64,000 nt of DNA, taken from NCBI RefSeq assembly GCF_964204645.1, contig NC_134032.1, forward strand, positions 11,960,275 to 12,024,274, given 5' to 3'. Origin of the DNA: Tubulanus polymorphus (Eukaryota > Nemertea > Palaeonemertea > Tubulaniformes > Tubulanidae). Positions 4,748-64,000 of the stretch are shown piece by piece (positions within the stretch are counted from its first letter, which is position 1; each line of letters opens with the position of its first letter). A program made the translations under genes and the position numbers. Under the pieces are notes generated by a model that ran no database searches, was not told the origin of the DNA, and saw only the letters and a list, made by a program, of their open reading frames with translations.

Positions 4748-5138
4748 GTATGTAGAGCCATTTTTACTGAATGTTTTAAATGGGTGTAAGTAATTAGAGT
4801 CGGATCCAAAATATCGTTTAATTGCGGTAATTATTTCATCGATATGCGCGGCGATGATGGTTATCAAATTCAAATTCAATTTTAAAAATTTTATTGATTA
4901 ATGAACTGATGCTAGTCGATATATCATATTTGTGGTTTGAGGTGCAGAAGTGTCTCCAAGATCCAGCAAAAACAGGCCTAACAGGAATTGGAGCCACCCT
5001 CAAGCTTTGTTTGCGGCTCCGGGACTGTGTGGACGCAGTTTTGGTTTCCCCTCGGGCCTTGGCGCTCGCTGCTGAGTGGATTCGCTCCCCGAGTATAGCT
5101 ATGGTTTTTTCATGAATTGTTAGGTTTAATTTCAAGAG

Positions 5139-5275
5139 AGTAAAACCGGAACCGAAGTAAGAAATGGAACGAGAAGTAGGCGTCACCGATGGAATGGACG
5201 CAGCTGTCAGCGGGCCGATCATCAAGAGAATGGTCCTAAATTCCTCATCTTCCCCTAACAAGAAAAGACGAAAAT
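5139..5275 (+). CDS. Exon 2 of the zinc-finger gene, with in-frame stop
   Basis: 137 bp between AG at 5137-5138 and GT at 5276-5277. It joins both neighbours in phase: one base completes exon 1, and its last T plus GT of exon 3 makes a Cys codon. After the TAA at 5158-5160 the frame is open from ATG 5164 and ends in a basic NKKRRK stretch that could be a nuclear signal. Confidence 0.5.
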
Positions 5276-8200: not shown

Positions 8201-8697
8201 TGAAGTACTACTTGAAGCGCCATCTGAAGGTGCACGAACACAACGACAACAACACGTATCCGTATTATTGCCAAATCTGCGGCAAAGGCTTCAAAACCGT
8301 GCGCGGGTATAAACTGCACGTCGAGGGACACGACGAGGAGGCCGTCGCGCGCCGTCCGACGTTTACCTGCGACTTGTGCGGCAAAGTCCTCGGCTCGAAG
8401 TCGAGTTTGAAGCTGCATATGGTCATACATAAAGGTCTGAAGCCGCACGTTTGCGACGAATGCGGCACGGCGTTCACGCGCCTGCAAGAGTTGCAGCGAC
8501 ACAAAGAAATACACGACGACGGCAACATCTACGAGTGTTCGATCTGTTTGAAACAGTACCCGGTTATGGCTAAATTGCGGCGTCACCTGCAGACGTGCAG
8601 CGTCGACGGGCCGATCACGTTCACGTGCGAACACTGCGGAACGGAGTATAAGAATCAGTCGTCGCTTGCGAAACATTTGAAAAAGTGTAGCGGTTGA
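5164..8697 (+). CDS. Poly-C2H2 zinc-finger protein
   Basis: Nuclear DNA-binding protein by family; target unknown. Main exon 6134-8697 (TGA 8695-8697), joined in phase to an exon ending at 5275 with a GTAAGC donor; from the ATG at 5164 the product is about 891 residues. The N-terminal 140 residues are acidic, with lysine-centred motifs of SUMO-site type (IKKELED, VVKEEKK). About 20 C2H2 fingers follow from about 6553. The first eleven are widely spaced with long acidic or basic linkers; nine more (from the finger beginning VDCTRC near 7920) are closer, one pair joined by a canonical TEERPY linker. The last two fingers end in His-Cys (C2HC). No KRAB, BTB, ZAD or SCAN domain is seen in the window. 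Codon use is strongly CpG-rich, unlike the flanks. No orthologue recognised. Confidence 0.88.
5329..5475. mobile_element. TTAA-type MITE, copy 3 (truncated)
   Basis: TTCAGTGCATGTACACCGCA, GTGCGGTGT and the ATCTCTATTGAAAGATGGCA core match copy 2, but the right half and its end are missing. Lies in the intron before the zinc-finger exon. Confidence 0.65.
5490..5910. mobile_element. CAGGGTCCC-family MITE, copy 2 (degenerate ends)
   Basis: Same orientation and body as the 8.7-kb copy (AGGTGCTTGAAACTCC, CTAAATCGATTCTTTACCC, ATATCCAGGAATGACTGATC) but more diverged; termini largely lost. The two copies flank the main zinc-finger exon as direct repeats. Confidence 0.7.
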
Positions 8698-8715: not shown

Positions 8716-9119
8716 CAGGGTCCCTACATCCCATAGAAATGGAATATGCTTTTAAAGGTGCTTGAAACTCCTTTATTTTGAACAAAATGCCCAAAATTCC
8801 TTTTTGCAACTCCTTCAATTTTGAGAAAATAGCCTATTAAGAAATTTTTGTCTAGTTTGTAGGTGTACAGTAGACTACCCCTAAATCGATACCGTTGGGT
8901 CCTTGATTTTTTTACCCGATAAGGAGGTTACCATATTAGAAACCAAGTGTAGTGAGTTAAGGATAGAAATTTGCTTACAAAACCACTGAGCTGCCAGTTT
9001 AGAAGAATAAACAATACCGATTTAGGAGGAGTCTACTGTAATTGGAATATACTTCAAACTTGAAATTTTCTCCTTAGAAACTACTTATATCCAGGAATGC
9101 CTGATCTGTAGGGACCCTG
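8716..9119. mobile_element. CAGGGTCCCTAC-ended MITE, copy 1
   Basis: 404 bp with terminal inverted repeats CAGGGTCCCTAC / GTAGGGACCCTG; body AGGTGCTTGAAACTCC and AAATTCCTTTTTGCAACTCC. Starts 19 bp after the zinc-finger stop codon, so it makes up the 3' UTR. Confidence 0.75.
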
Positions 9120-41399: not shown

Positions 41400-44300
41400 A
41401 TAATGACGTATTAGTTACAATAGACGTAGATAGATGGCGACTGCAGAAGGTTGAAAGCTTGTTTCGGGTCGATTTTGACAGATCCAAAATGGCGGATTTT
41501 TTAATCGTATTTAGGCCTGCTGTGTCTGGACTTCTATAAAATAGTCATACTGGTAATATAAGTCGTATTGGTTTTGCCGACAGACCAGCTGGTGGGATTT
41601 GAAAAAAAGGCAGTAAATTGCAAGAATAAAACAGAGGCTCGTATCAGGAGTAGGTAGTGTTAAAATGTGTTAAAGTGTAAATAATCTGTTAATCCAGTGT
41701 GTATTATGTATATAAAATAACAGACACTGGATAAACAGATTGTTTTTACACCAAAAACTATGTGATATGAGCCCATGTGGAATAAAATACCGTTGAGATC
41801 CACACGGTGGAAACTGACCAGGAGTTGCTTTATAGAAATCTAAAACTTAACTAACTAAACGAATGACAAATATTTATTCTCATACAACAATTATACAGAA
41901 TGCCAGGTATGCTCAGGGAATTAGAATGCAAAAAATTCCAAAACACGTGGACTTTCAAAACCAACTAGTCCAACGAGAGTTTATACGCCCATGGTCCAAC
42001 CATAGACTATAAAACAAACAAGGCTATGGCCTAACACCATGGACTCTAATAGTCCGTGGCCCCCGCACTAAAACCAGAGATAAACCTGGCCATTACTCTG
42101 GAAAGCGTAGGATTAAGTAATCGATCTGATTTACATTTTATACATTATCTTATTTTCACATATCAAATTATCTACATAGCTTATTTTCTCAAATTTTGAT
42201 AGTACAATTTCATACATGACAAACTTTAGTTACATGTAAGGTATTTCAAAGTTTTTACATGTGATACATTTCCACTACAGTTGATTTATACATTTGCATC
42301 AATAGGAAAATAACAAAAATACACAGAGAATTGTAAACTTTGATCCATAAAACACTGAAAATTGGACTAGTCTGAAAGTCTGAGATTATGAATTTGACAA
42401 TTCATGAGGTCAATATAACTGCCACTTGTTAATCATTCATAAAATATGAATTGATCATATCAACTGTTCAAATGACATTGTAAGAGATTTAGGACATATC
42501 TTGTCAATTATCAAGAAAATGCTCAACTATATTAGGACCTTCATAAATCAGTGTTTTATGAACAATTGACATGAACATGTTGTTTCATCCCCACAACAAC
42601 AATAAGGCCCATACCTAAACGACAGGTATTTATTTATGTACGTATGTCATTTACAAACACATGACCTGTATTTCAAAAGTTTCCAACATAAAAACATTAA
42701 AACCGCAGATAAAACCACAAATCCAAACTGGAAAGTTTAAGATTAACGATCGAAACAGTCTTTGATTAGATTTTCATTAACATTATTTGACAAGATAACT
42801 AGAGCTTTGCCACCTTTTCCTTAGTCTTTAAGAGGTTTTCAGACATTTATCAAATTGGTTATTTTCTCAAATTTCACATTTTATGCAAAATACTTAGGAA
42901 GTATTTTCTTTTATGCATTTAACAAGACAAATCGAGTATATAACATTTAACAAGACAAATCGAGTATATAGTATTTAACAAGACAAATCGAGTATATAGA
43001 TATTGTTCAACTGTCAATTTGAATACAGCAAGGGCAATTACTCATAATAAATTGCTTAGATATCTATAATTAAGTAAGCTTCAATTACTTTTCGAGGTGC
43101 TTCTTGTGCAGATGTTGCTGGACCCGACTTTGTTAAACCATGATTTTAGAGTCCATGGTTCATATAGCTAGCACAATTAACTGATTAACACTGTTCATAC
43201 ATCCTCATTTATCAAGAGACTGTTCCAAATCAAATCATGAACCATTGGAAGCACCAGTGGAAATATTGCTATAAAACTACTAAACTGAAAATTTCAACAT
43301 GAATGACGAACATGTTTGTCGTTTTATTCTTACACAACACTTATACCCTATATACCCTGCTATTATTAAAAAGTTATTTAAAAACAGTTAAAAATAAAAA
43401 CATACATTACAGCTACAAATTCACTCACTCTGGAAAGCATTATGTTACCTAATTCATCTTAATTATTACAAGCAAACTAAAAACACTGCCAAATTTTCTT
43501 GTCTTTCAAACATTATCAACTATCTTATTTCCACATATGTTACATTTGAAAGAAAGCAGGATCTGATCTAAGCACGAGTCCAATTGCCCGATAAAAGTTA
43601 ATTTTCATCAGGGCAAGTAGATTATCATTATCACTTGTCCACCGGGCTGTTTAATCCTATGTCTCAAAGCTTTTATCCCACTCGATGCAAGGGATGATTG
43701 TGTCACGATCGGACTGTTCATGTAGGGCAAGTTGATTTTTGAGGGGCAAGCAATATCACAGATATGCTTGCCCCGTGTTCAAGTGGCTTCTATTTCTTAG
43801 ATCAAACCCTGCAAAGTATTATGAAGGTTTTCCTCCTGATTATTTAAGATAATTCCAGCATCATCATTCGTGTCCATATATTTCAGTGTTTAAGCCGATA
43901 TTCAAAATGAAGCTAGGACAATTGACCAATTAGCACTGTATCCTCAAGTTATCAAGAAACTGCTCCTCTATTTTCGACAGGGCCTTAATCAAATCAGTAA
44001 TCATGAACCACTGAAAAGCACCGCAGTGGAATTGTTTCTATAAAACTACTAAAACACTGAATAGTTTCTACATGAATGATGAAAATGTACACATCGTTTT
44101 ATTCTCACAACAATAATATCTTAATCGAGGAATCATCATGCAAGTTCCTAATTTACAAACGCATGAACTGTATTTCAATAACTGTCTCCAGCATTAAAAC
44201 TATAGATGAAACATACAGATTCACTGTGTAATTCTTATCAATTAATCAGTCTTCATTTCATTTTCATTAACATTACTTTCACTAGAAAACTAGAATTTTG

Positions 44301-44880
44301 TCAACCTTGCCCTAACTTAAGTATTCTGACGTTTTTTCTTCCAGCTTCGAAAAGATCAACATAATTGTACAATCGATAACTAATCAATAAACCAATAACT
44401 TAATAGCTTAGTAGTTAATAGTTTATAGCTGTTTTACATTCCTTTTAAAAATGAATTTGAATTAATGGAGCTTAGCTTTTATTAAGAAGGACTTTTCTGT
44501 CACATTGCAAAACACATCTTTTTACAAACTCAATGTAAAATAGTTTCCTCTATATTGAAATATTCAAACGTAGAGTTCCTTTCTCAGGCCGAAGGAACCT
44601 AAATATCTAACTATTTTCAATATTCGACTCAACAACTATTTCATACTCCATTCCATGCAATCAGGTAAATTTTTTAAACTATGTTACCTATCAGACTGGT
44701 CTGAAAAAGGGTGATATTAGTAAAAAAAATCAATACTTTACTACAGAGGTCTTTGCCGCTGCTAGATCTCAGTGCTAGATCTCAGAGATAAACCATTGTC
44801 TTTGCTGCTTCGGTGTTTATCCTGAATCAGATTTTATAAGATAATCCATTGTCTATGCTACGCGAATCAGTTTTTATAAG
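41400..44880. other. AT-rich region with ~750-bp degenerate repeats
   Basis: No exon seen. Blocks sharing TAAAACTACTAAAA, an ACATGAATGACGA-like stretch and TTTTATTCTCACAACA recur near 42.5, 43.27 and 44.04 kb, suggesting three old tandem copies. Confidence 0.5.
42930..43005. repeat. Three tandem copies of a ~28-bp unit
   Basis: ACAAGACAAATCGAGTATAT three times in a row with ATTTA spacers, in an AT-rich gene-free stretch. Confidence 0.75.
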
Positions 44881-44888
44881 ATACACTA

Positions 44889-45085
44889 TCATCTCTGCTG
44901 CTCCTGATAAAATGTTTTATAGAAATCAACCACCGATTGTAGAAGAATCCATCGTTGAGTGATTAATCCGTCGCTGGCTCCTAAACTCCTCATCTGGGCT
45001 ACTGCAGTTTTCATCTGCAAATGGGTCAATGGGTATTTGTCTGCTTGTGTCTTCTTCAGGCCATTATTTCTGGGATGTAGTTTGA
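44889..45085 (-). CDS. Terminal exon of an unidentified minus-strand gene
   Basis: Acceptor TTGTTTCAG at 45094-45086, then 65 codons to TGA at 44889. The protein reads THLQMKTAVAQMRSLGASDG then LITQRWILLQSVVDFYKTFY; amphipathic helices, no family recognised. A decayed second copy lies at about 49540-49700 with frameshifts, so this is the better-preserved copy. It lies downstream of the coiled-coil exon array on the same strand and probably ends that gene. Confidence 0.5.
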
Positions 45086-45435
45086 CTGAAACAAAGTGAA
45101 GAAAGCAAAACATTTTAGACAGATTTATCATAACTTACATGTCATTTCAAATTACAAGCCACCGTGTTTTTCACTTAGTTAATATGGTTATTTCCAAAAT
45201 AAGAATTAGGTTCATTGACGTCAATTGCCGATTTAAACCCCAAAAAATAATTGCAGTAGTAGGACTAGTTCATCAATGTTTAAGCTTGGAGTACTCATTT
45301 GAAAAATTTATTACTCCAAGGTGTAAGACTAGTAAAGATAAAAGTTCTAAGATCAGCCATGTGGACAGGTAAATAGATTTCGATAATAATCACTTATCAA
45401 ATGATATTCATATGAGGCCTGAAATTTCTATATAC

Positions 45436-45533
45436 CGGTAATTTCCATCTAATGAGTTTGATTCTTCTGTGGGTTGTTCAAATCTGTAGATTTCAGATGA
45501 GTAGTTGATTTTAAGCTGGTCTCTTTCTTTTAG
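45436..45533 (-). CDS. Coiled-coil exon, best-preserved unit of the array
   Basis: Acceptor TTGCAG, then an uninterrupted frame LKERDQLKINYSSEIYRFEQ followed by PTEESNSLDGNYR; heptad-like spacing of Leu, Ile and Phe. The units at 50.0-53.2 kb encode the same pattern (QLEINYSSKIDRLEQ) but with stops or shifts. The donor used here (CCG|GTATAT) is weak and its phase does not fit the terminal exon, so the right border is uncertain. Confidence 0.45.
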
Positions 45534-45737
45534 CTGCAATGAGTAAATAAATATATCCTGTAATCACGACATTTAGAAATCATCGTAATAACTCCATGTA
45601 TATCAAGTTACCTTTTATGATTGCTGGTTTCATCATCGACGAGGATCTCCTAAGTCGGTTGGTTTCTGTGCACTGTTCTCTAATCGGCAGATTTTTGATT
45701 AGTTGTTGACCTCAAGCTCTCATTTGACTTTTCGAGT

Positions 45738-45860
45738 TAGTGTCCCTTACAAACCTACCACACCTGCCGGGAGCGAAACGGCGGTTTTTTTTTTTTAAAT
45801 CGGAAATCGAAGTACAGATATAGTTGCGTGATTGGCGGTCGTTTTTACAGATCTTTTTTT
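45738..45860 (+). repeat. Interspersed repeat (GTGTCCCTTACAAACC family), copy 1
   Basis: Begins AGTGTCCCTTACAAACC, then CACACCTGCCGGGAGCGAAA and a GAAGTACAGATATAGTTG core. Further copies at 54095-54475 (tail repeated four times) and 59895-60010, inside EFHC1 intron 3. Confidence 0.7.
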
Positions 45861-46059
45861 TTAAGTCCAAGAACATAATTGGTAATTTGGTTCCAGTTCA
45901 TTCAAACAATCTTTTATTCTGCCTAATTCTGATTTTGGAAAACTATATTACAAGGTTGAAGATAATTTTACAATATTTGGTCTTTTTTTATGTAACTAGT
46001 CCGAAAGTTTACAATGTTTAATAAATTTGTTTAACTTCAATTTTTTTGGTCGTTTTCAC

Positions 46060-46680
46060 CGTTTAAATAGTCGAAGCACATATTAAGTGACTGATTGGGG
46101 TTAACTTTTTTTCTGCCTAATTTAATACATCGAGATTTTGGAAATAACTATATTTTACAATATTTGGTCTTGTTTTCATGTAACTAGTCCGAAAGTTTAC
46201 AAGGTTGAATAATTTTATCTATTTTTTTTCTGCCTAATTTAATACATCGAGATTTTGGAAATAACTATATTTTACAATATTTGGTCTTTTTTTCATGTAA
46301 CTAGTCCGAAAGTTTACAAGGTTGAATAATTTTATCTATTTTTTTCTGCCTAATTTAATACATCGAGATTTTGGAAATAACTATATTTTACAATATTTGG
46401 TCTTTTTTTCATGTAACTAGTCCGAAAGTTTACAAGGTTGAATAATTTTATCTATTTTTTTCTGCCTAATTTAATACATCGAGATTTTGGAAATAACTAT
46501 ATTTTACAATATTTGGTCTTTTTTTCATGTAACTAGTCCGAAAGTTTACAAGGTTGAATAATTTTATCTATCTTTTTCTGCCTAATTTAATACATCGAGA
46601 TTTTGGAAGTAACTATATTTTACAATATTTGGTCTTTTTTTCATGTAACTAGTCCGAAAGTTTTCAAGGTGGGAGAATTT
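46060..46680. repeat. 116-bp tandem repeat, about five copies
   Basis: TTCTGCCTAATTTAATACAT recurs at about 46111, 46228, 46344, 46460 and 46576, giving a 116-bp period with very few differences. A single related copy with CAATATTTGGTCTTTTTTTC is at 54320-54390 and an older one at 45860-46020. Confidence 0.85.
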
Positions 46681-46699
46681 TGTCTAACTTTAATTTTTT

Positions 46700-49225
46700 T
46701 GTCATTTTCACCGTTTAAATTTGTCTAATTTTTTAAAGTTTATTGTTTTTTTTCCTCGAGTATGTCTGAAATCGAAGTACATAATTGGGAAATTCGATTC
46801 CGGTTCATTCAAACTATCTTCCAATCAGTCTGAAACGGCAAGCTGAAGAAAAGAGCAGAACCTTTTGAGCAGAAAATCCTTTCGAATATCACTGATCATA
46901 ATTATCATGTCAATTCATATATAAGATCAGCAATGTGGATCGATACGTAGATTTTAATAATAGTCTTAAATGATATTTATGAAATTCAACTCATATAGTA
47001 ATTCATCTATATTCTAAATATCTAAGCAATGGTTGATTATTATAATTTAACAACAATTCAACTAAAGCATCTATAGTCATCTCTAGGAATACCAGAGTTA
47101 CAACAAATTTAGTAATGCATAATCAATCTTATCAAATCGTTTTTGAACTGTTTTCTCTTTTATCTTCTTGAAATTCTTGATGTGTCTTTTATTGAAACCC
47201 AGGCCCATCATACAGTGCAAACGTGCTAGTAATATTGGCCTATATATATTTCGATTGTCAGCTAAACCATGTTCGTATTATCAAATTTCCTTCATCGTCA
47301 GTTAAGAGATGTTTTCTACCCACAGATGGCAACATCTGTACCCAGTGAATGGTATTCTAATCCATTTCATTAATTCTAAATATTGCTCCTAATATATACA
47401 ATGATTTTGTAATTATGATAATATAACTAACTGAAGAGTGAGTGCGCTGCCAGCATTGAGCACACTGATCCTATAAGTAACATGGTTCTACAGATTTAAG
47501 AAACCTTGAATCATTCCCACAACTCGACAAATCCAGAATTCTGCAAAGCCTCAAAGATTAAATAAATAACACGCACAAGAGACAGAGTTAAAACATACCC
47601 AGTATTCTTTATATATCAATCAATATTAAATGATAGTTGTCTTTTCAACCCCTATGGTTTAGATTTGAGCACTTTTAACTTATATGAAGACGCTGAATTA
47701 GATACCTAATCAATTAGTTAAATGATAATGTCCTAGCTATAACTGAAATTGTCTCGGACAATATTTTATATGGGGCTTGAAATTTCTACACGAGAAGAAT
47801 TTCAGATCTGGTACAAATTTGAATTAATCACTATTTGAACTGCTAATTTTGCATCAGAGCTTTTGATACCTAGCTTAACTAACCCAGAATCCCCCAAAAC
47901 CTAACTGATTCAACAGATCCTACACACACATGTGGCCCAGTTAGACGCAGATGACATTGCGCGATACAGTCGTCTCATCCACTGTGCAATTTTGAATAAG
48001 TTTCACTTATATTCATTACATTGAATTAATTTTAATTAAATTCTAGGTATCTAAGCGAACCATTAATTAGTAATCATACTAGCTATATTTTAATTGTCAG
48101 TTGAACAATATTTATATGGAGCCTGAAAATCTACATGAGTAGAATTTCAGATGTGGTGAATTTGTCACTATTTGAGTTCATCGGAAATTAAAGATAAAAA
48201 AGCATATTTTTAGTGGTAAATTAGAAATTCCCTTAGCCGAATGGCTATATAATCTTTATTTCCCATATATAGTACACTGTGTATAAGGACCAAAAGACCT
48301 TGTTATGACCGGACCTCCCTGGTGCGGTGCGAGTCATGATGCTAGAAAATAGTTTGAAGGAGAGGGGTTAGTAAAAGAGAGCTATTAGCAAGAGGAGTAA
48401 GACCTAAATTTAGGATATCCTGTCAGAATAAGGCTTTCAATCTGACATACACAGTGAAATTGAAATATTCCCCCTTCCAAATCCAGGAATGTATTTGTGC
48501 ACAGATTCGATCGGAAGTAAATCTGCGTTAAATTATTTTGGCAATACGGTATGTATCAAAACTAATACAGCTGTATGAAGACACCATAGGTTCACTTACA
48601 GATAAATAAATGTGCTCAGATACATATGTATCAACTACATTTTAAATGTCCATGGAATTAGAAATAATTTCACATAACAATTGAATTAACCTTAATCTAT
48701 CTAAGTAATACATTAATGAGTAATTCATCTTAGATTCTAATTTTCAGTTAAACTATATCTAATATGCGTCACTTGACACACAGTATGGCTTTTAGATATT
48801 AATTGAATCAGTTAGGTTTGAGTGAATTTTACCAATAATGAAAAGCATGGCTAGTCGACGTAAGCGCGGCAGTTGGCGATACAGAACTGATCAGTCAATG
48901 AGACTGATTCACTTATAGATGTGCTCAAATATATTATATATTTCAGCTATATTTCAATAAATATTTATAATATAAAAAGTTTTTGATCTAACATCAAATA
49001 TTGAATTCATCTTATATTGTGAATATCTAAGCCATTTTTCCTGGCTGTGTGCTAATTGTCAGTCAAACAACAATTATCATGCGTCGCCCAAAACAAGACG
49101 CAGTGTTTCAGGAATGAATTAAATCAATTAAAGCTTCGGTTTATTCTGGATTTATCAAAGTGTTGAGACCAAATCACTGTTTCATAAAGACCCGTAGTCC
49201 ATAGTTATAGTCTTATCTTTATTAT
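46700..49225. other. AT-rich region with degenerate ~600-bp repeats
   Basis: No exon seen. A motif of TATCTAAG, ATTAATGAGTAATTCAT-like sequence and TAATTTTCAGTTAAAC-like sequence recurs near 47.0, 48.05, 48.7 and 49.03 kb. It lies between the two copies of the terminal exon and probably belongs to the same tandemly duplicated locus. Confidence 0.45.
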
Positions 49226-49539
49226 TCAACTCAACAACTATTTTCATACTAGATTCCACGCAATCAGGTAGATTTTGTGCACTATTATACCCATCAGACC
49301 TGTTTGAAAAAGGGAGAAAAACTCGATACTTTACTACAGAAGTCTGCTATTGTCTTTGCCGCTCCTGGATATCAGTGTTTATCAGATGCACTATTGTTTA
49401 TGCTGCTCCTTAAATCATAAGATACACTATTGTCTATGCTACTTCTAAAAAAATGTTTATCCTGAATCAGTGTTTATAAGATAATCCATTAGCATTGTTG
49501 TGCGAATTAGTGTTTATAAGATACACTATTGCTGCTCCT

Positions 49540-49700
49540 AATAAAATGTTTTATAGAAATCAATCCCCGATTGTAGAAGAATCCATCATGAGTGATTAAT
49601 CCGTCGCTGGCTCCTCAACTTATCACCTGGGCTTCTGCAGTTTTTCATCTACTAGTGAGTGTCTTCTTCAAACCATTATTTCCGAGATGTAGTTTGGCTG
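49540..49700 (-). pseudogene. Decayed copy of the 44.9-kb terminal exon
   Basis: Part of a direct duplication: about 49230-49990 matches 44620-45450, including non-coding flanks. It still has a TGTTTCAG acceptor and a GASDGLIT-like core, but an 18-base segment and single bases are missing, so the frame breaks. Confidence 0.55.
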
Positions 49701-51100
49701 AAACAAAGTGAAGAAAGTAAAACATTTCAGACTGATTCATCATAATTTACACGTCATTTCAAATTACAAGCCAACCAGTTTTTCACTAAGTAAAATTCAT
49801 TGGTGTCAATTGCCGATTTAAACCCCAATAATCAATTGCAGAAGTAGGACTAGTTCATCACTGTTTACGACTGGTAAAGATAAAAGATCAGCCATGTGGA
49901 CTGGTAAATAGATTTTGATGATAGACACTCCAAAAATGGTAGTCATATAAGGCCTGAAATTTCTATATACCGGTAATTTCATGTATATCAACTTACCTTT
50001 AAAGATTGCTGGGTTCAGTTCTGGCCTCTTCTGTGCCCTGTTCCAGTCGGTCGATTTTGGACGAGTAGTTGATCTCAAGCTGGGCTTTTTCTTATAGTTG
50101 AAACTTAGCTGCAATCATTAAAAGAAGATATCCTGTAATCACAAAATATTTCATATAGAACTAATGGAAATAATTCCATGAATATCAAGTTACCTTTTAT
50201 TATTGCTATGTTCGTTATTGGTGTGGATCAATTATCTAATTTGGTTGGCGATTTTTGACGAGAAGTTGATCTCAAGCTGGGTTTTTTCAAAACTTTAAAT
50301 TTAGCTGCAACGATTAAAAGAAGATATCTTGCAATGACTAAATATTTCATATAGAATTTATCAATAATTCGTTAAAAAATCAACTTACATTTCAAGTTTG
50401 CTGGGTTCAGTATCATTTAGAATGTTCTCAGTTGGTTGATGCGATCCAAGCTTCGATAATTCTATGGGCTGAGCTAATCTGTAGATATTTGATGAGTATT
50501 TATTGATCTAAAGCTGGGCAGTTTCATGTAGATAGGATCTAGCTGAAATGCACAAAAAAAAGATATTCTGTAATCACAAAATATTTCATATAGAACTAAT
50601 AAAAATAATTCCATGAATATCAAGTTACTTTTTATGATTGCTTTGTTCGTTATCGGCGCGGATCAATCATCTAAGTTGATTGGTTGGTGAGTTTGATTTT
50701 AGTTGGCATCAACTTTGCGCTGTTACAATAGGTAAATTTTGGACAAGTAGTTGATCTCAAGCTGGGCTTTTTCTTATAGTTGAAACTTAGCTGCAATCAT
50801 TAAAAGAAGATATCCTGTTATCACAAAACATTTCATTTAAAATTAATCGCAATAATTACATGTATAGCAAGTTACCTTTTATGATTGTTTGGTTCGTTAT
50901 CGGTATGATAATTCGTTATCGGCGCGGATTTCTAGTTTGCGTCATCTGTGCGTTGTTCCGGTTTTGGTTGATTTTAGACAAGTAGTTGATCTCAAGCTGG
51001 GTTTTTCATATAGTTTAAATTTAGCTGCAATGATTAAAAGAAGATATCCTGTCATGACAATATTTCATATAGAATTTATCATAATAATTTCCATAAAATA

Positions 51101-53010
51101 ATTGCCCATGGGCCAAGAGTAGATTCGGTCCCGATTAGAGAAATGATCGCACCAGCCACTTCACCAACAATTCAGTCAGTAAAACTAATAACGTACACGC
51201 ACGGCAACAGTAAGTAGGCCTCTACACATAACTACTGTTGCCGAGCGCATGTTTGTCAGCAACCGATCATTAAAATACATACACATCGTAGTAGTAGATA
51301 CAAAATCAGTGTTGCAATGAATACACATTGAAATGCAATACACGACTATAAGTAAAACAGGCACTGAACGTTATTATGATTCACCCCACTACCAATCACG
51401 CCAGACCAGTCGAATGAGATTATCATCACCCCCCCTATACTTATACATCATTTTTGGACTATTTGGAAAATTGATATTTTCAATACTGAAATCCGCAGGG
51501 AATTCTCATCTCTGATATCAAGTTACCTTTTATGATTGCTTGGTTTGTTATCAGCTTGGATAATTTCAGTTGGTTCGGTTGATTCTCCTTGTTTCATCTG
51601 TGCGTTGTAACAGTTGGTCAATTTTGGACGAGTAGTTGATCTCAAGCTGGGTTTTTTCATATAGTTGAAATTAAGCTGCAATGATAAATAGAAGATATCC
51701 TGTAATAACAAAATATTTCATATAGAATTTATCATAATAATTTCCATAAAAAATCAACTTACATTTCAAGTTTGCTGGGTTCAGTATCGTTTAGAATGTT
51801 CTCAGTTGAATGATGCCGTCCAAGCTTGGATTATTCTGTGGGCTGAGCTAATCTGTAGATATTTGATGGGTATTTGATCTAAAGCTGGGCAGTTTCATAT
51901 AGATAGCATCTAGCTGAAATGCACAAAAAAAGATATCCTGTAATCACAAAATATTTCATATAGAACTAATCAAAATAATTAGATGAATATCTCGTTACTT
52001 TTTATGATTGATTTCTTCGTTATTGGTATGGATCAATCATCTAAGTTGATTGGTTGATGAGTTTGATTTTAGTTGGCATCAACTTTGCGCTGTTACAGTT
52101 GGTCAATTTTGGACGAGTAGTTGATCTCAAGCTGGGCTTTTTCTAATAGTTTAAACTTAGCTGCAATCATTAAAAGAAGATATCCTGTTATCACAAAACA
52201 TTTCATTTAAAATTAATCAAAATAATTACATGTATATCAAGTTACCTTTTATGATTGTTTGGTTCGTTATCGGTATGGTAATTCGTTATCGGCGCGGCAT
52301 TCTAGTTGGCGTCATCTGTGCGTTGTTCCAGTTGGTCGAATTTAGACGAGTAGTTGATCTCAAGCTGGGTTTTTCATATAGTTTAAATTTAGCTGCAATG
52401 ATTAAAAGAAGATATCCAGTAATGACAAAATATTTCATATAGAATTTATCATAATAATTTCCATAAAATAATTGCCCATGGGCCAAGAGGTTTACCGCAG
52501 CCTTCTGAGATATGAGATGCTTGATAAAGTTCAAATTGCATCAAATATTTGTAAGGTACGAGTAGATTCGGTCCCGATTAGAGAAATGATCCGAAACGCG
52601 AACCCAACACAGAGCCCCGGTACCGCGTCAGCCACTTTCCGACAATTCTGTCAGTTAAACTTATAACATTTGGGCATGGCAACAGTAAGTAGGCCTATAT
52701 ACATAACTACTGTTGCCGCGCGCGTGTCTGTCCGCAACCGAGCGATAAAATACATACACATGGTAGTAGTAGATACAAAATCAGTGTTGCAATGAATAAG
52801 CATTGAAATGCAATACGCGACGATACGTAAAACAGACACTCACTGAACCTTATTATGATTAACAATTGCGCCAGACCAGTTGAATGAGATCATGATCACC
52901 CCCCCCCCCCCCCCCCCCAATGCTTATACATCATTTTTGGACTATTTGGAAAATTGATATTTTTCAATACTGAAATCCGCAGGGAATTCTCATCTCTGAT
53001 ATCAAGTTAC
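51101..53010. repeat. 1.38-kb segmental tandem duplication
   Basis: Sequence from about 51101 (ATTGCCCATGGGCCAAGAG) reappears from about 52469 with few changes up to the exon unit at 53.0 kb. The second copy has about 70 extra bases after 52490 and a poly-C tract in place of a short C run. Confidence 0.7.
52898..52918 (+). repeat. Poly-C tract
   Basis: About 20 C in a row; the duplicated copy at 51430 has only six. Length may be unreliable in the assembly. Confidence 0.85.
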
Positions 53011-54094
53011 CTTTTATGATTGCTTGGTTCGTTATCGGCTTGGATCATTTCAGTTGGTTGGGTTGATGAGTTTGATTCTACTTGGTTTCATGTGTGCATT
53101 GTAACAGTTGGTCAATTTTGGACGAGTAGTTCATCTCAAGCTGGGCTTTTTCGTATAGTTGAAATTTAGCTGCAATGATTAAAAGAAGATATCCTGTAAT
53201 GACAAAAATATTTAATTTAGAATTTATCATAATAATTTCCATAAATAATATACCTAGAATAGCCTACTCGGTTATATTCGTAACACTGAACAAATTATAA
53301 GCGAACATACGATACGAAGTCGAATGAAATGCTCGCCATTTTGTTTTGGGTTCCACATTGGGTTTTCCCAATGGGCTTTCCCAATTACATCAGAAGTTCC
53401 TGGAATTTCCGGTATATCCAACAAACAGCCAATCACATTCAATGTAGCTCAGGTAACAAGGTCAACTCAGATAAATAGAAGCGAGAAAATTTTGGGGGTT
53501 GATAAAGTGAGGACCCGTAGGTCGAAAAGTACATCGAGATGAGTCGCAAAATAACGGCAACACTTCCAGGAAGGATTGAACTTTTATATATTTCAATTCC
53601 AAGTATGCAAATTCTCATATATGAAAACGTGCCATTACTTAGTGCTAAAAAGCAGGGTTTTTATGTGTTTTTCAAGAATAAGTCCCCTAAAAATAACTTG
53701 ATCACTATGAAATTTTTATGGGCTCGAGAACTCATTATAAGCCAAACCATGACACCAAAAATCAACACTATTGGTTCAACAGCCAATGTTTGTGCCTTGT
53801 TGACACACCGGTACTCTATTCATTTTCAATGAAAACTGCTTCTCCAGACCATTTGCATAGGCAAACCTACAGTTCGCCAAAAATCAACTTTCATTTCAAG
53901 TTTGCTGGGTTCAGTATCGGTTAAAATGTTCTAAGTTCGTATCAAATATCAAATTACCTTTTATGATGGCTGGGTTCATTATCAGAGGATCTCCTAAGTT
54001 AGTTGGTTGAGTTTCATCCAAATTGGCCCCTTCTGTGCACTGTTCTCTAATCGGCAGATCTTAGTTGATGAGCTCTCGTTCGACTTTTTGAGTT

Positions 54095-54475
54095 GGTGTA
54101 CCTTACGATCGTGACACACCTGCCAGGAGTGAAACAGGCAGGAATTGAAATACAGATATAGTTGTGTGATCGTCGGTCGATTTTACATCATTTTTTTTCG
54201 GAATCGAAGTACAGATATAGTTGTGTGATCGTCGTTCGATTTTACATCATTTTTTTTCGGAATCGACGTACAGATATAGTTGTGTGATCATCGGTCGATT
54301 TTACATAATTTTTTTTCGATAATTTTACAATATTTGGTCTTTTTTTCATGTAGTCCGAAAGTTTACAAGGTTGAAGATAATTTTGTCTAATTTTTTTTTT
54401 CGAAATCGAAGTACAGATATAGTTGTGTGATCGTCGGTCGATTTTACATGATTTTTTTCGGAATCGAAGTACTTC
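54095..54475 (+). repeat. Same interspersed repeat, copy 2 with repeated tail
   Basis: CACACCTGCCAGGAGTGAAA then about four tandem copies of a roughly 70-bp tail holding GAAGTACAGATATAGTTG and a TCGGTCGATTTTACAT end. Confidence 0.65.
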
Positions 54476-54582
54476 TTTGTCTTCTTGGGTTTCGTCGAAG
54501 CTGAATGTGAGAAAAAGAAAAACATTTTGTAGTCACACATTTCTTCATCATTAATCCTAATTTACATGGGTATCAACTTAAC

Positions 54583-54666
54583 TTTCAAGATTGCCGAGTT
54601 CAGTATTTTTTTCGGCATCTTCTGTAGTCGCCTTCTAGCATCTTCTTCTTCAACTTCTTGGGAGTC
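54583..54666 (-). CDS. Candidate exon upstream of the coiled-coil array
   Basis: Strong acceptor (TTTCATTTCAG), 28 open codons in phase 0 (DSQEVEEEDARRRLQKMPKK then ILNSAILK), then donor GAAA|GTTAAG. Charged and helix-prone. Its 3' portion is homologous to the ends of the array units, so it seems to be an earlier exon of the same gene. Confidence 0.4.
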
Positions 54667-54974
54667 CTGAAATGAAAAAAAGAGAAGAGCGATGAAAACC
54701 TGGTACGGAAAAAAACTAATGTCTGAAAGCTTTTCAGCTCTCCGTCGTCGGTCACATGCCGAGAACACCAGACAATGAGCCAGCCAGGAATATACTGTCC
54801 TCTACACGCCCTCACACAGAACGCGAAAACCAGAATGACAACGCCTCACATTCCCCATCTAACTGCAGGATGTACTGGGCGACGTCAGTAACTGACACAC
54901 CTGTAAAATTGCACGAAACACAAATAGCGCAGTACAACCAGCTTGACCGGGCGAGATTCAGGATCTCAACTAGC

Positions 54975-55250
54975 ACTCAAAAGCGTGACAAGAGACTTCA
55001 TCCACTGACCGAGGTTGTCACAAGGACACAATGAAACTAGCACTCACAAGCCGACAAGAGACTTCATCCACTGACCGGGGTTGTCACAAGGACACAATGA
55101 AAACTAGCAATCAAACTAGAAATCAAAGAGCGTGACAGTAGAATCATCCCTCAGCCGACTCAGAATACCAGAAACAAAGAGCGTGACAGTAGAATCATCC
55201 CTCATCCGGGCGGTCACAAGGACACAATGAATGCTAGTAGCGTGACAATC
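54975..55250. repeat. Tandem repeats abutting the LINE remnant
   Basis: Two copies of a unit with AGAGACTTCATCCACTGACC and GTTGTCACAAGGACACAATG, then two copies of GCGTGACAGTAGAATCATCC. They lie at the 3' side of the LINE remnant, where LINEs often carry tandem tails. Confidence 0.6.
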
Positions 55251-55520
55251 CAGTATAACCGCTCCATTTGTATCCCGCGCAATCCCACAGATATGCCCGT
55301 CATTGACATCACTCAGCACACTTTGTAGATAGGTGGGGGCAGTGAGGCCTCGATATCCTGGTTTTCGTGTTCTGTATGAGGGCTTGTAGGGGGCAGAATT
55401 TCCTGACTGACTCTTTGTCTGACATCCTCGACACGTGACCGGCGAAGGAGAGCTGACGCCTTCGGACATTAGTTTTGTTCCAGCAAACGTTGAAATTTGA
55501 CAGAGAAATCGGCCCTGAAA
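55250..55520 (-). mobile_element. Decayed LINE 3' ORF end
   Basis: Minus-strand frames give RRRQLSFAGHVSRM and, after a frameshift, YKPSYRTRKPGYRG and IARDTNGAVILDCHA. These match the conserved order at the C-terminus of many non-LTR retrotransposon ORF2 proteins (the RRRLRFAGH, GxRxxGRP and NDRxxWRxxVxDCxA blocks). The reverse transcriptase itself is not present; a 5'-truncated, frameshifted remnant. Clade not assigned. Confidence 0.65.
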
Positions 55521-55617
55521 AAAATAACGGATTAGACCCTGAAAAAAAGAACGGATTAATAAACACGGAACAGTACAGGACAGTACAGAGACGAACAGTA
55601 ACACATAAAACATAAAG

Positions 55618-55698
55618 ACGTCGTTCCTCAGGAAGCAGGAACAGGAGCAGGAGCGGGAGCGCAGCGAAAATCGCCAGGAGGAGAATCCACGGTAGCAT
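55618..55698 (-). CDS. Possible first exon with signal anchor
   Basis: ATG at 55698 opens MLPWILLLAIFAALPLLLLF followed by LLPEERR: a strong signal anchor with a positive stop. It could start the minus-strand gene whose later exons are at 54.6-44.9 kb. No convincing donor is seen right after it, and a LINE remnant occupies the sequence just downstream. Confidence 0.3.
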
Positions 55699-55911
55699 GT
55701 TCACAGTGTGAGAGAGCTGAGGTGAATGGCCTATGCTTGTGTACACCGTGGTCAGCCGGTGACGTATTCAATAGCGCGTATAAATGATATCAACAACTCT
55801 GAAAAACCGCAATTGTGTCTCTATTGTTGAATGGTTTTACATTATGAAAGGTTCCACTGCCTGGTTGAATACGCGCCAGTAGTCAGCTGAACAATATAGT
55901 TGAGGAACCTT

Positions 55912-56590
55912 AAGGCCTTTTTATGAACCAGCAAAATCGAAATAGATTAGCTATTTAGATTATATAGCCGATTAGTGTCAATTAGCATAACCGGGTATGT
56001 TGGTTGATAAAAACGCCATGTATAAATTATTCAATTATGGCCTACTCAGCAGCGACTTCTACCGAGAACACCATAGGCCTTTTTATGAACACTCGATTAG
56101 TATATTCGAGTATGCAAAACGTTTTTATGAGCATGGATTATGTCATAATCCGTCATTTTTATGAACATTGGTTATCATAATCGATTAGCATACTCAGCAT
56201 ACTCGCTCGGCGAGCAAGTATGCCGATTATCTAATCCAACCGATATGGTGTTCTCGGTAGAAGTCGCTGCTGAGTAGGCCATAATTGAATAATTTATACC
56301 TGGCGTTTTTATCAACCAACATACCCGGTTATGCTAATTGACACTAATCGGCTATATAATCTAAATAGCTAATCTATTTCGATTTTGCTGGTTCATAAAA
56401 AGGCCTCATATCGGTTGGATTAATTAGATAATCGGCATAGGCCTACTTGCTCGCCGAGCGAGTATGCTGAGTATGCTAATCGATTATGATAACCAATGTT
56501 CATAAAAATGACGGATTATGACATAATCTATGCTCATAAAAACGTTTTGCATACTCGAATATACTAATCGAGTGTTCATAAAAAGGCCTT
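55912..56590. repeat. Interlocked double inverted repeat (A B A' B')
   Basis: A = 55912-56073, B = 56075-56246, A' = 56247-56406 is the reverse complement of A, and B' = 56407-56590 the reverse complement of B (with two short insertions). All four blocks begin or end with GGCCTTTTTATGAA or its complement. Arms are near identical. No ORF. Probably a foldback/MITE-type element, possibly two nested insertions. Confidence 0.85.
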
Positions 56591-56869
56591 TAATAAGGCC
56601 ATATGAAATAGATTACTTGATTCCCAACAGCTACTTCCGAATTTATCAGCCGCCGCCAGTTTTTTTTTCTTAAATTCTAGAATAATTTATAAATTATACC
56701 GACCGATAGCACTTCAGTTAAAGATTCACACCAACAGGTCTTCATATCATAGAAACCGCGTAAACATTTACTAATGGAATTAGCTTATTAGTCACAACTA
56801 CGTTTAAATACAAGGACAGTTCATGCACTCCGAGATAACTAACTCACATCATGGCCACGAGGAAAGCGG

Positions 56870-57035
56870 TCTATTTGAGTCATTGGGGGAAAACCCTAAT
56901 TTCTAAATGCCTATTTCTCAAAATTGAAGGAGTTTCGATCAAGCACCTTTTAATAGCTTTTTCAGTTTAAAAGGAGTCTTTTAGGAATCAAGGACATGGG
57001 GACCCTAAGGAATCAAGGAGTCATATGGGGACCCA
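56870..57035. mobile_element. CAGGGTCCC-family MITE, copy 3 (reversed fragment)
   Basis: Inverted relative to the other copies: GGGGACCCTAAGG end, AAGCACCTTTTAATAGC and TCAAAATTGAAGGAG body. Partial. Confidence 0.55.
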
Positions 57036-57853: not shown

Positions 57854-60800
57854 ATGGAAGGTTTACCTGTTTTACCCGGCAATAGTTTCAGAGATCCAAC
57901 GGTAAGTCTTCAGAAATTAAGTTTTTAGCAGATTCGATGAATCAAATTAAATCAAATTGAATTTTATTCCTTCTCTTTGACTGACTTCGTTCTTGTGATC
58001 TGTTCACTGATTGTTTTGACTCCCGCGTTCCACAAATGTAGTAATTTAATATGAATCTGGATCCTACCCCTTCCCCAGCCCAGGTAGGGCAGGAGGCCCT
58101 TGGTGTGGGTCGGTCAGTACTAACTAACTACATCATTCGCTGATGATGCACTGACACTGACTGTCGCTGTTTGTCTATGTAACAATGAATCTCGTCACTA
58201 CTATGCGCATGCGTGAAAGAATTGATTAAGGGTAAGATGATATAGAGGGGCTAGATGAAATAGATTTCATCAAACTTGCAGTTGCGTTCTGTGGCTCAGT
58301 GGGTAAAGCACTGGACCAGCGTTGGGCATAGATAGGACTATTTTTGGTAGTAGTCGAATGAAACACTCTAATCCGTGTACACTGTAGATAATCAATGAAG
58401 TCCCACAATTCAAATTTTATATGAAATGATTTATTAAAACGAAACCACAACATTTCGGCTGTCGGACTCCCGTAATCACAGCTATTTCACTCTGTTTACG
58501 GGCCCTGTAATTGAAGAGGCGGCCAAATTAATAAAGCCTGAATAACTTGTGCTTTGATTTGACCTGTTTGTACTTGTTGTGCGTATTGTTTTAGTTTCGC
58601 GAACTGTTACTTTCACAAGTCTTCGAAAGCCCGTCTAAACTAAGCTTACAATTAGGTTACCGGTACTAACTTATTCGGAATTGAATTTGCATTTTTCAGC
58701 AAACCAAATACCACCGATCTCAAACACTCGGATACAAGAATGGATATGCGTTGCCACGGTACCCGACAGTCGGAGTGGGCGGCGTCCCGCTACAGTATAA
58801 CCAAATCAGTCAACAGGAACTCGACGAATTAGCCAATTATCAACCGACTTTGACGTACGGACAGGCAAAACAAGCCCCGCCCGAGGATTTCGTACCCGCG
58901 CACGTCGCCTGGGATAAAAAGGTGCCGATTTCTCCTTTTCGATGTTTTAACTCTGAAATCGAATAAAGTCTAAAACAAGTTTTTTTTTCGTGATATTTCC
59001 TTTGATGTTTGCGTTGTCGCGATAATATGGAAGAAAGGAAAACAAGTCTGAACTTCTCCCCAGGGCCTGGTTCCATTGTTGTGAGTTAACTCAAGAGTTG
59101 AAATCTGGGTTCAGTTTCACAAAAAAAAATTAAACTCAAATTTTTGGTGTAATTGTTATGTTTTCAATGAGGACAACAATTCAAACTTAACCGTTTTAGG
59201 CTTGAACTTTTTCGTGAAACTGTCCCCGCGGGGCCGGTTGCGTAGTCATGGCTGGTCCCAGTTCATTTTCTATGTTTTGACTTTTTTACTCTTTGAGTCA
59301 AATTTGACTCAGAACTGTGGAACTGGATCCGGGACATTTTTATCTTTGAATGATTGATGTTTTTTTTTTTTGTAAAGGTTTTGATGTTCCACGGATATTT
59401 CAAGATGACCGTCCACGAATCGCCGGACGAATTTTATCGCGTTCGACCCGTGAAAATTTATTACTATCTCGAAGACGACAGCATCGCCGTCATCGAACCA
59501 AACGTCGAAAACAGCGGCATGCCACAAGGTGATAATAATTTAATCGAGTTTATGTATATTTCAAACGTAACATCTTATTTGCGAGACTTAAGATGAAATC
59601 AGTCACTTTCGAAGTTGTGATTGCTGGTGCCTCCTCTACTGGGACCAAGAATTTTTTCACGATTTATTTTGACCAAATCTGGTATTGGACCCAGTATTAT
59701 TTTTAAAGTTCGCTTGGCCAAAAACATTTCTCAGATTTTTGAATTTGATAAATGCCGAGTGAACTGGGCTTTTCTCCAATACTCAGTTTGTTTCTATACC
59801 ATGTGCATAAAACATTACATAAGAATATGAATGATTATGTAAGTAATATACTTTTTTATTATTTGGTTGGTAAATTTTGTTTGATTTTCTGATTGAGTGT
59901 CCCTTACAAACCCACCACACCTGCCGGGAGCGAAACAGGGGGTTTGATTTTGAAATCGGAAATCGAAGTACAGATATAGTTGTGTGATCGACCGGTCGAG
60001 TTTACATATTTTTTTGTTTAAATTACTTTTTTTAATGTACCAACTGGACAACTATTTCAATTATCATTTTTTTCTTTTTAATTTTCTCAAAGGTAAACTG
60101 ATAAAACGTCAGAGGCTGCCAAAGAACGATCAGGGAGATCACTGGCACTGGAAAGACATCAACTTACAGCAGAACGTTACGTTTTATGGCAAGATTTTCA
60201 GAGTAACAAACTGCGACCAGTTCACCCGCGTAAGTTCATTTTCAACACCAGGGGCCAGTTGCACAGTCGTGACTTAAGTCCAAAAGTGGTCTTAAATCTT
60301 AAGACTGGTCGTAAGTTGTAAGATTGGCTATAGAGCTAAGTTGGTCTTAGACTGGTCTTAAGTCTAAGCCATGACTATGCAACTGGCCCCATATGCTTTG
60401 AAGCTCTCATAATGTATCCACTAGCTGTGTTAAAATTTGAAGTTGTATCTCAATCTATCCGGATTGTGATCAGTTACTGCTCATGTTATTTTACCAGTTT
60501 CACAAAAAGGATTAAGGCCTAAATCGATTAAAGATAAAGTGAATTAATGAAGAAATTAAATCGATTGAGTCAAATCGTTTTGTGAAACTGGGCCCTGACA
60601 TGAAAAAATGTGAAATACTTGCAGTTCTTCTATCTGACCCCTGCTAAGTTATCAGTTTTAAAACTTTGCCTCTATCATAGAAAATTTATTGCGTATCAAT
60701 TGCTTAGACCCGATGATAATCAGATTTTAGCTATCAGGATTTCGTTCTTGGAATTTTCTAGGATTTCCTGGAAGCGGAGGGCATCATCGTGAACGACCCG

Positions 60801-63800
60801 GAGTCGGAGCCCACCGATCCGTACGACAGCAAACGTAAAGACGACGCCGAATTGAAGACGTTCACGACGAAAACAAGTTTCGATAAATTGAAACAGTTCA
60901 TCGAATTGGATCGAAAAGTTTTACGATTTTTCTGTCTGTGGGACGATCGAGAAAGCATGTTCGGAGAAATGAGACCTTTCATATTACACGTAAGTTGTTG
61001 CTGTACCACCAGATGGCGTAAATGATAGTTGACAGGATACTCACTCGCCACGAATAAAATCCTCCATTGCCCTAGTAGTGATATCGTTTTGTACACTAGC
61101 ACACCTGGTGGATCTTCACGTGCCACAAATAGAATCCTCTATTGCCCCAGTAGTGATAAGATAAGAGGTTATTACTCTCCAACCATTTCCATGGTACGTG
61201 GAGGAAAAAAATTATTTTGTTTGCGAATATTTACATATCGAGAGAAAAATAAAAAGATTTTAAAAACTTAACGAGGTTATTTACTGTATATACAAATACA
61301 GTGTACTATTTACAATTGACAGACTACAGGAGAGATCTATATACATCGAAACTATCTTTGATAAATTGTGCTAATAGTGATATGCTGCACACTAGCGCAC
61401 CTGGTGGATCCTCACCCGCCACAAGTGGAATCCTCTATTGCCGCAGTAATTAATATCCTAATGTACCTGGTGGATCCTCACTTGTGGAATCCGGAAAAGA
61501 TGAAATCTTATTTGAACCCTCTTTCTCTTTGTTTCAGTACTACCTGGTCGACGACACTCTCGAGATCCGAGACGTCCACGAACCGAACGACGGCCGCGAT
61601 CCGTTCCCCGTGCTCATTACGAGACACAAAGTTCCGAAAGATCGTTACAACGTCGATTCGTCGTTCCCGGGAATCGTCATGGAGTTGACCGATCACGAAA
61701 TCAAAGAGCAATATTTCACGCCGAAAGATTTCATGGTCGGCGTAACGTTCAATTTGTACGGCAGACGGTTCCTGATTTACGATTGCGACAAATTCACGAA
61801 GGCGTTTTATTACCATAATTTCAACATTACCGATTTCCCGACGGTCGAAGTGAAGGGACTCGCAAAAGAACTGCCCAAAATGGTAAGTTAAAGATTATCA
61901 TAGAGCATAGGGAATGGGTCAATCTTGTAGGAAATAGCTTATGTTTCTGGAAATAGCTAGGAATGGGTTAATGTTCCAGGAAATAGCTAGGAGGCAGTCA
62001 ATATTGAAAGGATAGCTAGGAATAGTGTGGGTCAATGTTGTAGGGAATAGCTTGGAGGGGTTTGGCGTTACATGATTTGAAAAGCCGAGATATATCTGAA
62101 AATGTAGATTCTTGAGATCCCAGAACAACAATCAAATAATAGAAAACTAAAATGAAATTAAAGTACTTTTTTATGAAAGCCAGTGCCCAGTTTCACAGGA
62201 AAGTTCATCTCAAAGTTTTGGTGTGATTGCCATTGGTTACTTCATCTCTTCAATGACGAGAACAATTATTCAAACTTAACCGTTTTAGGCTTAACACTTT
62301 TTCGTGAAACTGGGCCCAGGGCATAGTTTAGAAAGGTTTTTTGCTATTCCCCAGTGAAATTTTATTCTTTTCCTAAGACTTCCAAAAAAAACATTCTCTT
62401 TTTATCTCGAAAGGAAATTTCACAGTACAACGGCTACGGGTCGATGGAAGATTCAATGCAGTCGTGTTTATCATTGGTGCCTCAACCACCGAAAAAAGAT
62501 TTCATAAAATCCCTCGAAAATGACCACAAAATTCTGCGCTTCGAAGCGATAATGGTGCGTATATGAAACATTCAAAACAAGTTGTTAGAGATGTTCGAGT
62601 AATCGAAGCATTTTTTGAAATAAAAAAAAAAATTCTTTAATTTTAGGATTCGATTAAACCGGATCACAAGGGCAGACGGTTTATCATATCGTATCATCTA
62701 GCCGACGATATGTTAGGTATTTACGAACCGCCGGTGCGAAACTCAGGAATAATCGGCGGTAAATTCCTCGAGAAAACTCGCGTGGCGAAACGTGGCAGCA
62801 CACCGGAAAATCCGTGTTTCTACGGACCAGACGATTTCAAAATAGGAGCGTCGATCGATGTATTCCAACACAGGTATGTCGAGAATTCGAACAAGCCGAA
62901 AAAGTCCTTCTTAGTACTTCTTTTTACCCTGGCCTTACCACTGGAAACCCTTAGGGGTTAATATGAAGTTTGGAAGTTTCAATGAAAGTTTTATATTTAC
63001 AGATTCACGATAACTGACGCTGACGAATATGTATTAACGTATATGTTAGAACATTCGAACCAGTTCTCGCCGGATACAATAAGGTAGGCGCTTTATTTCG
63101 AGTCAAAATCGTGATAAATAGGAGATATGGACATCGAGATAGGATAGATAGACGAGAGGGTGGGTGGTGTAGTAAGAAGGAGAGTGGTGGAGAAAAGAGG
63201 AATGGGAAAGTATCACAGAACAGGAAAATAAGTGGAGGGGAGCGGGGGGGAGATAAGTGAGAAAGTGCATGAGAGAGAGCTTCTCGGTGAGACTGGGGAA
63301 TAACAACTGACGTGATAGACTTAAGGGTAAAGTTAATCTGATTTTATACACAGGTCACTGCAAGAAAAACACAACAGACCAACTGAGGGTAAAGAGCCTA
63401 AGAAAGGAGGACCGATGAAAGTCACTCGACAGTAAGTTTTAAAAATACTTCATATCCCCTTCATGTCCCAAATATGGGAATTAGTTGAAACATGGTCCCT
63501 GTAGTATGGTGGTACGTTCACTTTTAACAAAGGTCCATTTTCATTTAGAAAAATTACCCATGAAATATGAAGGAAAAGATTGGGAAAGTTTAGCTTTCGT
63601 GGGAACAATGTTTTTAATAAACAGATCATTTCGCAATGTTGAAATATATGCAATGATGATTTGTTTTTTCAGAGAAGGAGATTTAGGACGGTTAGTCGCC
63701 GAAGTGAAGAGTCAACTGAAGAAAATGGCCATTACGGATAAAAGTCGATTCGACGAGATGTTCTTACGATATAACTCCGACCGAATGGGTTTCATCGATC

Positions 63801-64000
63801 GCGAACATTTAAAAGATATGTGTCAACAATTACAACTACCCGGAGATTCAGACGTCCTCGACGTGGTGAGTTAAAATTCAGATACCACCTCCACCTCCCC
63901 ACACTTCGGTACCTGATATCTTTATTAATTGTAGTAGTTTGCACCAAGATTAAAGGGTAATTAATTAGGCATTGAAAATGGTGGTTTGATAGAAAATGAA
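57854..64000 (+). CDS. EFHC1: EFHC1 (myoclonin-1) orthologue, 3' end outside window
   Basis: EFHC1 is a microtubule inner protein of ciliary doublets. Eleven exons with matching phases: 57854-57901, 58700-58921, 59378-59528, 60093-60229, 60762-60989, 61538-61882, 62414-62554, 62647-62873, 63003-63083, 63354-63431, 63673-63865; all have AG/GT borders. They encode 617 residues. The start [12 protein letters not shown] is the family's conserved N-terminus. Three DM10 domains lie at about 91-200, 235-360 and 412-530; each ends in the typical motif ([27 protein letters not shown]). GRDPFP and NSGIIGG are EFHC1-type signatures; EFHC2 differs there. The EF-hand region starts near residue 570 with an incomplete Ca-binding loop ([10 protein letters not shown]). 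Human EFHC1 has 640 residues, so only one short C-terminal exon should be missing; none is seen in 63866-64000. Introns carry several palindromic elements. Confidence 0.95.
58285..58325 (+). repeat. tRNA-like A-box, SINE fragment
   Basis: GTGGCTCAGTGGGTAAAGCA followed by CTGGACCAGCG is a typical tRNA 5' half with a Pol III A box. No good B box or acceptor stem follows, so a tRNA-derived SINE remnant rather than a tRNA gene. In EFHC1 intron 1. Confidence 0.45.
58430..58505 (-). repeat. GAAATGTT-type repeat terminus in EFHC1 intron 1
   Basis: Minus strand: a GCTGTGATTACGGG stem side, GACAGCCGAAATGTTG, then GTTTCGTTTTAATAAATCA. Related to the copies at 22.45, 26.27 and 30.8 kb. Confidence 0.45.
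59105..59227. repeat. CCCAGTTTCAC element, EFHC1 intron 2
   Basis: Ends GGTTCAGTTTCAC / GTGAAACTGTCCC with an AACCGTTTTAGGCTT core shared with the 62.2-kb copy. Confidence 0.7.
59895..60010 (+). repeat. Same interspersed repeat, copy 3 in an EFHC1 intron
   Basis: Starts AGTGTCCCTTACAAACC, ends after CGGTCGAGTTTACAT; close to the 45.7-kb copy. Lies about 80 bp before exon 4. Confidence 0.7.
60248..60390. repeat. Palindromic GGGGCCAGTTGCA element in EFHC1 intron 4
   Basis: Same family, CCAGGGGCCAGTTGCACAGT to GCAACTGGCCCC; begins about 18 bp after the exon 4 donor. Confidence 0.85.
60494..60597. repeat. CCCAGTTTCAC element, EFHC1 intron 4
   Basis: Ends ACCAGTTTCACAAAAAGG / TTTTGTGAAACTGGGCCC; AATCGATT repeated in both arms. 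Confidence 0.75.
62185..62319. repeat. CCCAGTTTCAC element, EFHC1 intron 6
   Basis: Ends GCCCAGTTTCACAGGAAAG / CACTTTTTCGTGAAACTGGGC; lies about 95 bp before exon 7. Confidence 0.75.

Follow-up and report, generated by a model that had tools for sequence, protein, structure and literature searches.

Organization of the locus

The window, by which we mean the whole 64,000-nt stretch of DNA that was analyzed, carries on its minus strand a repeated unit of about 235 bp. A profile search returned 12 matches, of which 10 are near full length (49985-53214) and two are partial, so that the repetition noted in the preliminary description is real. Their placement on one strand was confirmed by the core CAGCTTGAGATCAACTACTCGTCCAAAATTGACCAACTG, which has 11 matches on the minus strand with 0-12 mismatches, none on the plus strand, and none in 20 shuffles of the region's sequence. 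The acceptor- and donor-like borders that had been described are also present, each full unit in the window being preceded by CAG and followed by GT. Units are spaced at about 195-250 bp, and the array is interrupted twice (about 51110-51490 and 52480-52975) and internally duplicated (50244-51119 recurs as 51613-52489, 92%). Nearly all of the units carry stops in the reading frame originally quoted for them.

The terminal segment, correctly described as having one good and one broken copy, lies open at 44892-45083 and broken at 49474-49761, both within a duplication of approximately 1 kb (44612-45625 versus 49214-50207, 69%). The array does not span 44889-54666 as had been proposed: the profile search found no units at 45.9-49.2 kb, an interval that instead holds a 116-bp repeat in five copies. 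The features of the locus are as follows.

41851..56896, minus strand: dispersed-repeat copy (mosaic), with blocks co-linear with copy A (C3:6165838-6176691) at 74-95%
44892..45083, minus strand: open terminal segment, KLHPRNNGL...YQEQQR and a stop, 64 codons; 100% self match, with 19 further near full-length copies
45450..45571, minus strand: lone degenerate unit preceding the open terminal segment; profile match, E 6.2e-9
46106..46686, no strand: distinct tandem repeat (116 bp x 5.0; 98% matches), found in type I copies as well
49474..49761, minus strand: broken terminal segment, first copy; matches to the terminal segment and profile
49985..53214, minus strand: non-coding array, 10 units of near full length bordered by CAG and GT; profile
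53937..54137, minus strand: degenerate partial unit; profile match, E 8.5e-11
54582..54666, minus strand: acidic segment resembling an exon (DSQEVEEEDARRR...); copies A, B and C each have a homologous block
55309..55698, minus strand: small ORF starting MLPWILLLAIFAALPLLLLFLLPEERRLYVLC (MLPWILLLAIF...); first ~30 codons open in 23/23 copies sampled
55914..56587, no strand: insert in the 5' part of the copy; the flanking blocks, split here, are contiguous in other copies

Beyond the insert, which is unrelated, the 5' part of the copy resumes at 56588-56896. The acidic segment aligns between copies A and C (4995-5286 and 4597-4883, respectively) and between copy A (4828-5286) and the window. The predicted product of the small ORF looks like a membrane anchor.

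A repeat dispersed across the genome

We searched the genome (268 Mb in 77 contigs) for each part of this ensemble. The terminal segment has at least 128 matches and the unit at least 246, in both cases on nearly all large contigs, with many of the units in arrays that adjoin terminal segments. The small ORF, situated 10 kb upstream in the window, has at least 40 genomic copies at 93-97% DNA identity, and the block past the terminal segment likewise has at least 40. Among the 128 terminal-segment matches, 20 are near full length, with 86-100% amino-acid identity. The 5' and 3' parts of the repeat pair at 7-14 kb apart on the same strand at many sites, and the window is co-linear with copies A (C3), B (C4) and C (C6). 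The preliminary description had named, as grounds for its refutation, a core dispersed through the genome without linkage to the terminal exon; half of this holds, the core being indeed dispersed genome-wide but in company with the terminal segment.

Individual copies differ in their content. In copy A an open terminal segment is accompanied by a single degenerate unit, copy C combines a broken terminal segment with about 13 units, and the window copy has an open and a broken terminal segment in succession. The window is not alone in this double arrangement, since two terminal-segment matches lie 4.4-5.8 kb apart on one strand at at least six other loci found in the genome search:

C9:1843086 and 1847461, one strand: paired terminal segments
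C9:12550687 and 12555297, one strand: paired terminal segments
C9:15158212 and 15162869, one strand: paired terminal segments
C6:22401192 and 22406329, one strand: paired terminal segments
C11:11357287 and 11362264, one strand: paired terminal segments
C10:1973648 and 1979440, one strand: paired terminal segments

The double layout may be the older form. The window copy belongs to a dispersed repeat of about 10-15 kb, of which the genome has more than 100 decaying copies.

No termini common to the family were found; the 5' and 3' ends vary between copies, and the copy ends at both sides contain nested repeats. Two candidate ends were discarded. The palindrome AGGGCC...GGCCCT was rejected because homology runs past it in several copies, and a 92-bp satellite preceding the C6 copy was dropped as a 5' end because it is a separate high-copy repeat. 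This satellite has at least 194 matches (for example, C6:803201-803945) and also abuts one 5' end of the dispersed repeat; on C12, one TXNL1 intron has a 25-bp piece of it at its start.

Capture of a TXNL1-like gene fragment

In the copies on C6 and C12, exons encoding a PITH domain (E 4.4e-15 and 5e-7), together with their introns, lie 1.9-3.3 kb upstream of the small ORF, and direct reading shows them followed by a last exon ending ...GKKGESH and a stop. PITH exons are found in about nine dispersed copies, several of them with stops. A thioredoxin exon stands in front of the C12 copy alone, so that C12 holds the complete TXNL1-like gene (named for its thioredoxin-plus-PITH architecture and from general knowledge of the family); the other copies are most likely derived from its 3' half plus downstream DNA. 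The introns between the PITH exons are kept in the dispersed copies, so that DNA or unspliced RNA, and not spliced RNA, was the source of the spread; a processed retrogene or a LINE-copied mRNA does not fit for the same reason. The window copy stops short of the PITH exons, as does copy A.

Mutator-like ends at some copies

Copy A lies between the inverted repeats TAGACTGGTYGCC and GGCRACCAGTCTA with a perfect 9-bp target duplication, CACTGCCTG, and is bounded by TAGACTGGTCGCC and GGCAACCAGTCTA ends. On C10 (about 6187947-6188031), a 74-bp miniature with TAGACTGGTYGCC inverted repeats is flanked by a target duplication of 10 bp, and in a longer relative the target duplication matches at 7/9 positions. 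Ends of the TAGACTGGTYGCC type number 213 genome-wide, some of them in tandem at C10:13835171-13835682, and Mutator-type transposase domains occur in the genome. Target duplications of 8-10 bp are the known range for Mutator-like elements (PMC5225508). All of this, together with the intron-bearing piece of a host gene in the longest copies, favors a Pack-MULE-like account in which a Mutator-like element captured a host segment and amplified it, an alternative that concerns the mobilizing mechanism only. As the mechanism for this family we consider it unlikely: the point at which inverted repeat and module meet in copy A was found in no other copy, copy B joins the inverted repeat at a different position, nine other copies extend upstream past the position of A's junction without having it, and a search of the window copy for a Mutator-like inverted repeat found none. 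Since every copy has a junction of its own, TAGACTGGTYGCC was rejected as a family-wide common end; Mutator-like activity moved or enclosed some of the copies.

No transposase was present inside any repeat copy that was read. On C5, ORFs with a FLYWCH zinc finger and a MULE domain (the latter match just below the Pfam cut-off) stand side by side on one strand at 11758.4-11760.2 kb, between two elements with TAGACTGGT ends (11757.7-11761.3 kb). A further locus, C10:11707188, was rejected as an autonomous member, having no second matching end and no tie to the module there. The dispersed repeat may have been moved in trans by the enzyme of another transposon, a Mutator-like transposase being the putative mover of at least copy A and rolling-circle transposition a candidate for the remaining copies.

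Units and terminal segment evolve without coding constraint

We examined whether any part of the repeat bears the marks of protein-coding sequence. The putative exon lengths of 137 full units fall about equally into the three classes modulo 3 (42/51/44), 113 of these units are closed in all frames, and 63 of 320 indels are divisible by three, below the one third mark. This shows that the units are non-coding and free of protein-coding constraint. Their splice borders are nearly constant (CAG in 133/137, GT in 136/137), with conservation of 0.99-1.00 against means of 0.87 for the exon and 0.95 for the intron side, a constancy that may in part be a product of the search and alignment procedure.

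The terminal ORF is open in 17 of the 20 near full-length copies. Its changes across 19 copies comprise 26 non-synonymous, 6 synonymous and 2 stop changes, set against a neutral expectation of 66/28/6%, which shows that it evolves neutrally, without protein-coding constraint. The 1.5 kb around it diverges evenly from the consensus, by about 1-2%, with no conserved island. The terminal ORF has no match in Pfam or PDB; the core peptide quoted in the preliminary description also gave no match when searched alone, a query too short for the purpose.

The small ORF is the only part of the repeat with hints of coding constraint. In 23 copies we counted 5 synonymous and 4 non-synonymous distinct changes, and all length changes are in frame, yet they fall largely inside a CTCCTG repeat. 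The unusually constant unit borders and the small ORF, open in every copy sampled, leave room for some expression-related constraint. A further reading is a mobile element carrying its own spliced, variable-length exon array, in which the units would be genuine exons in a transcript, either element-encoded or non-coding, unit number would set transcript length, and splice signals rather than codons would be under selection; on the sequence evidence we regard this as a long shot.

Three observations, namely the open small ORF with its balance of synonymous and non-synonymous changes and its in-frame length changes, the kept splice borders and the mostly open terminal segments, could also be read as a genuine multi-exon gene family, with a membrane anchor, a coiled-coil exon array and a terminal exon, that has spread and mostly died, leaving a few live members. 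This reading is improbable given the lack of frame in the units, the neutral terminal ORF without recognizable domain, and introns and intergenic DNA that are no less conserved than the supposed exons. The exon array of a single gene serving alternative splicing or length variation, as first proposed from the tandem AG- and GT-bordered units on one strand, is refuted in its single-locus form and has practically no chance of being correct, as the same ensemble occurs at more than 100 dispersed sites, the units maintain no frame and the terminal ORF is neutral. Mutually exclusive splicing does use tandem exon arrays, for example in Dscam, and these resemble the present repeat in that splice-bordered, exon-like units follow one another in tandem on one strand; unlike them, the present units lose frame and the whole ensemble is dispersed.

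A long, decaying and apparently non-autonomous repeat

The window very probably contains, on its minus strand, a decaying copy of a long, apparently non-autonomous dispersed repeat (about 10-15 kb) that has non-coding exon-like units and whose longest copies include a TXNL1-like fragment. Those copies that were read at length show the inner order small ORF (MLPW...), acidic exon-like block, tandem units and terminal segment, with a variable number of units per copy, from 1 to about 13 of ~235-237 bp each, and the longest copies extend 5' into the PITH exons and introns of the TXNL1-like gene. Unequal exchange may alter the number of units. Of the earlier suggestion of a non-coding array seeded by an exon, the non-coding character stands, and the unit may have originated from a real exon.

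In kind the finding is ordinary: tandem units inside a dispersed repeat that is long, mosaic and mostly decaying and that has captured part of a gene. It illustrates a trap for gene prediction, since tandem repeats within a dispersed element can pass convincingly for an exon array. As a further example from animals, it shows the 3' half of a conserved gene spread to many sites together with its introns and more than 10 kb of flanking DNA.

Tandem-unit arrays form part of Helitron-type elements in molluscs (PMC5139131). These satellite-bearing elements and the Drosophila DINE-1/Helentrons (PMC4067079) are dispersed and non-autonomous, like the present repeat. The present units differ in being exon-like with splice borders, and the element differs in being long and carrying a TXNL1-like part. 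Pack-MULEs are Mutator-like elements with host gene fragments (PMC5225508, PMC6446971), and the present family likewise has an intron-containing host fragment and at least one copy in inverted repeats with a 9-bp target duplication, where 8-10 bp is typical. It differs from Pack-MULEs in that most copies have no common inverted repeats and the dispersed stretch exceeds 10 kb.

Other features of the window

An intronless ORF of 862 amino acids with many C2H2 zinc fingers lies on the plus strand at 6109-8697, and has on either side (5525-5904 and 8742-9112) a direct copy, at 66%, of a sequence that recurs in a TXNL1 intron. Within the repeat copy, an inverted repeat (54707-54933 versus 55258-55481, 74%) has, in translations of both strands, a common motif like AGHV.RM.DKE that appears reminiscent of the end of a LINE reverse transcriptase. 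Exons of a DM10-domain gene (EFHC-like) adjoin the repeat copy on the opposite, plus strand at 58685-64000.
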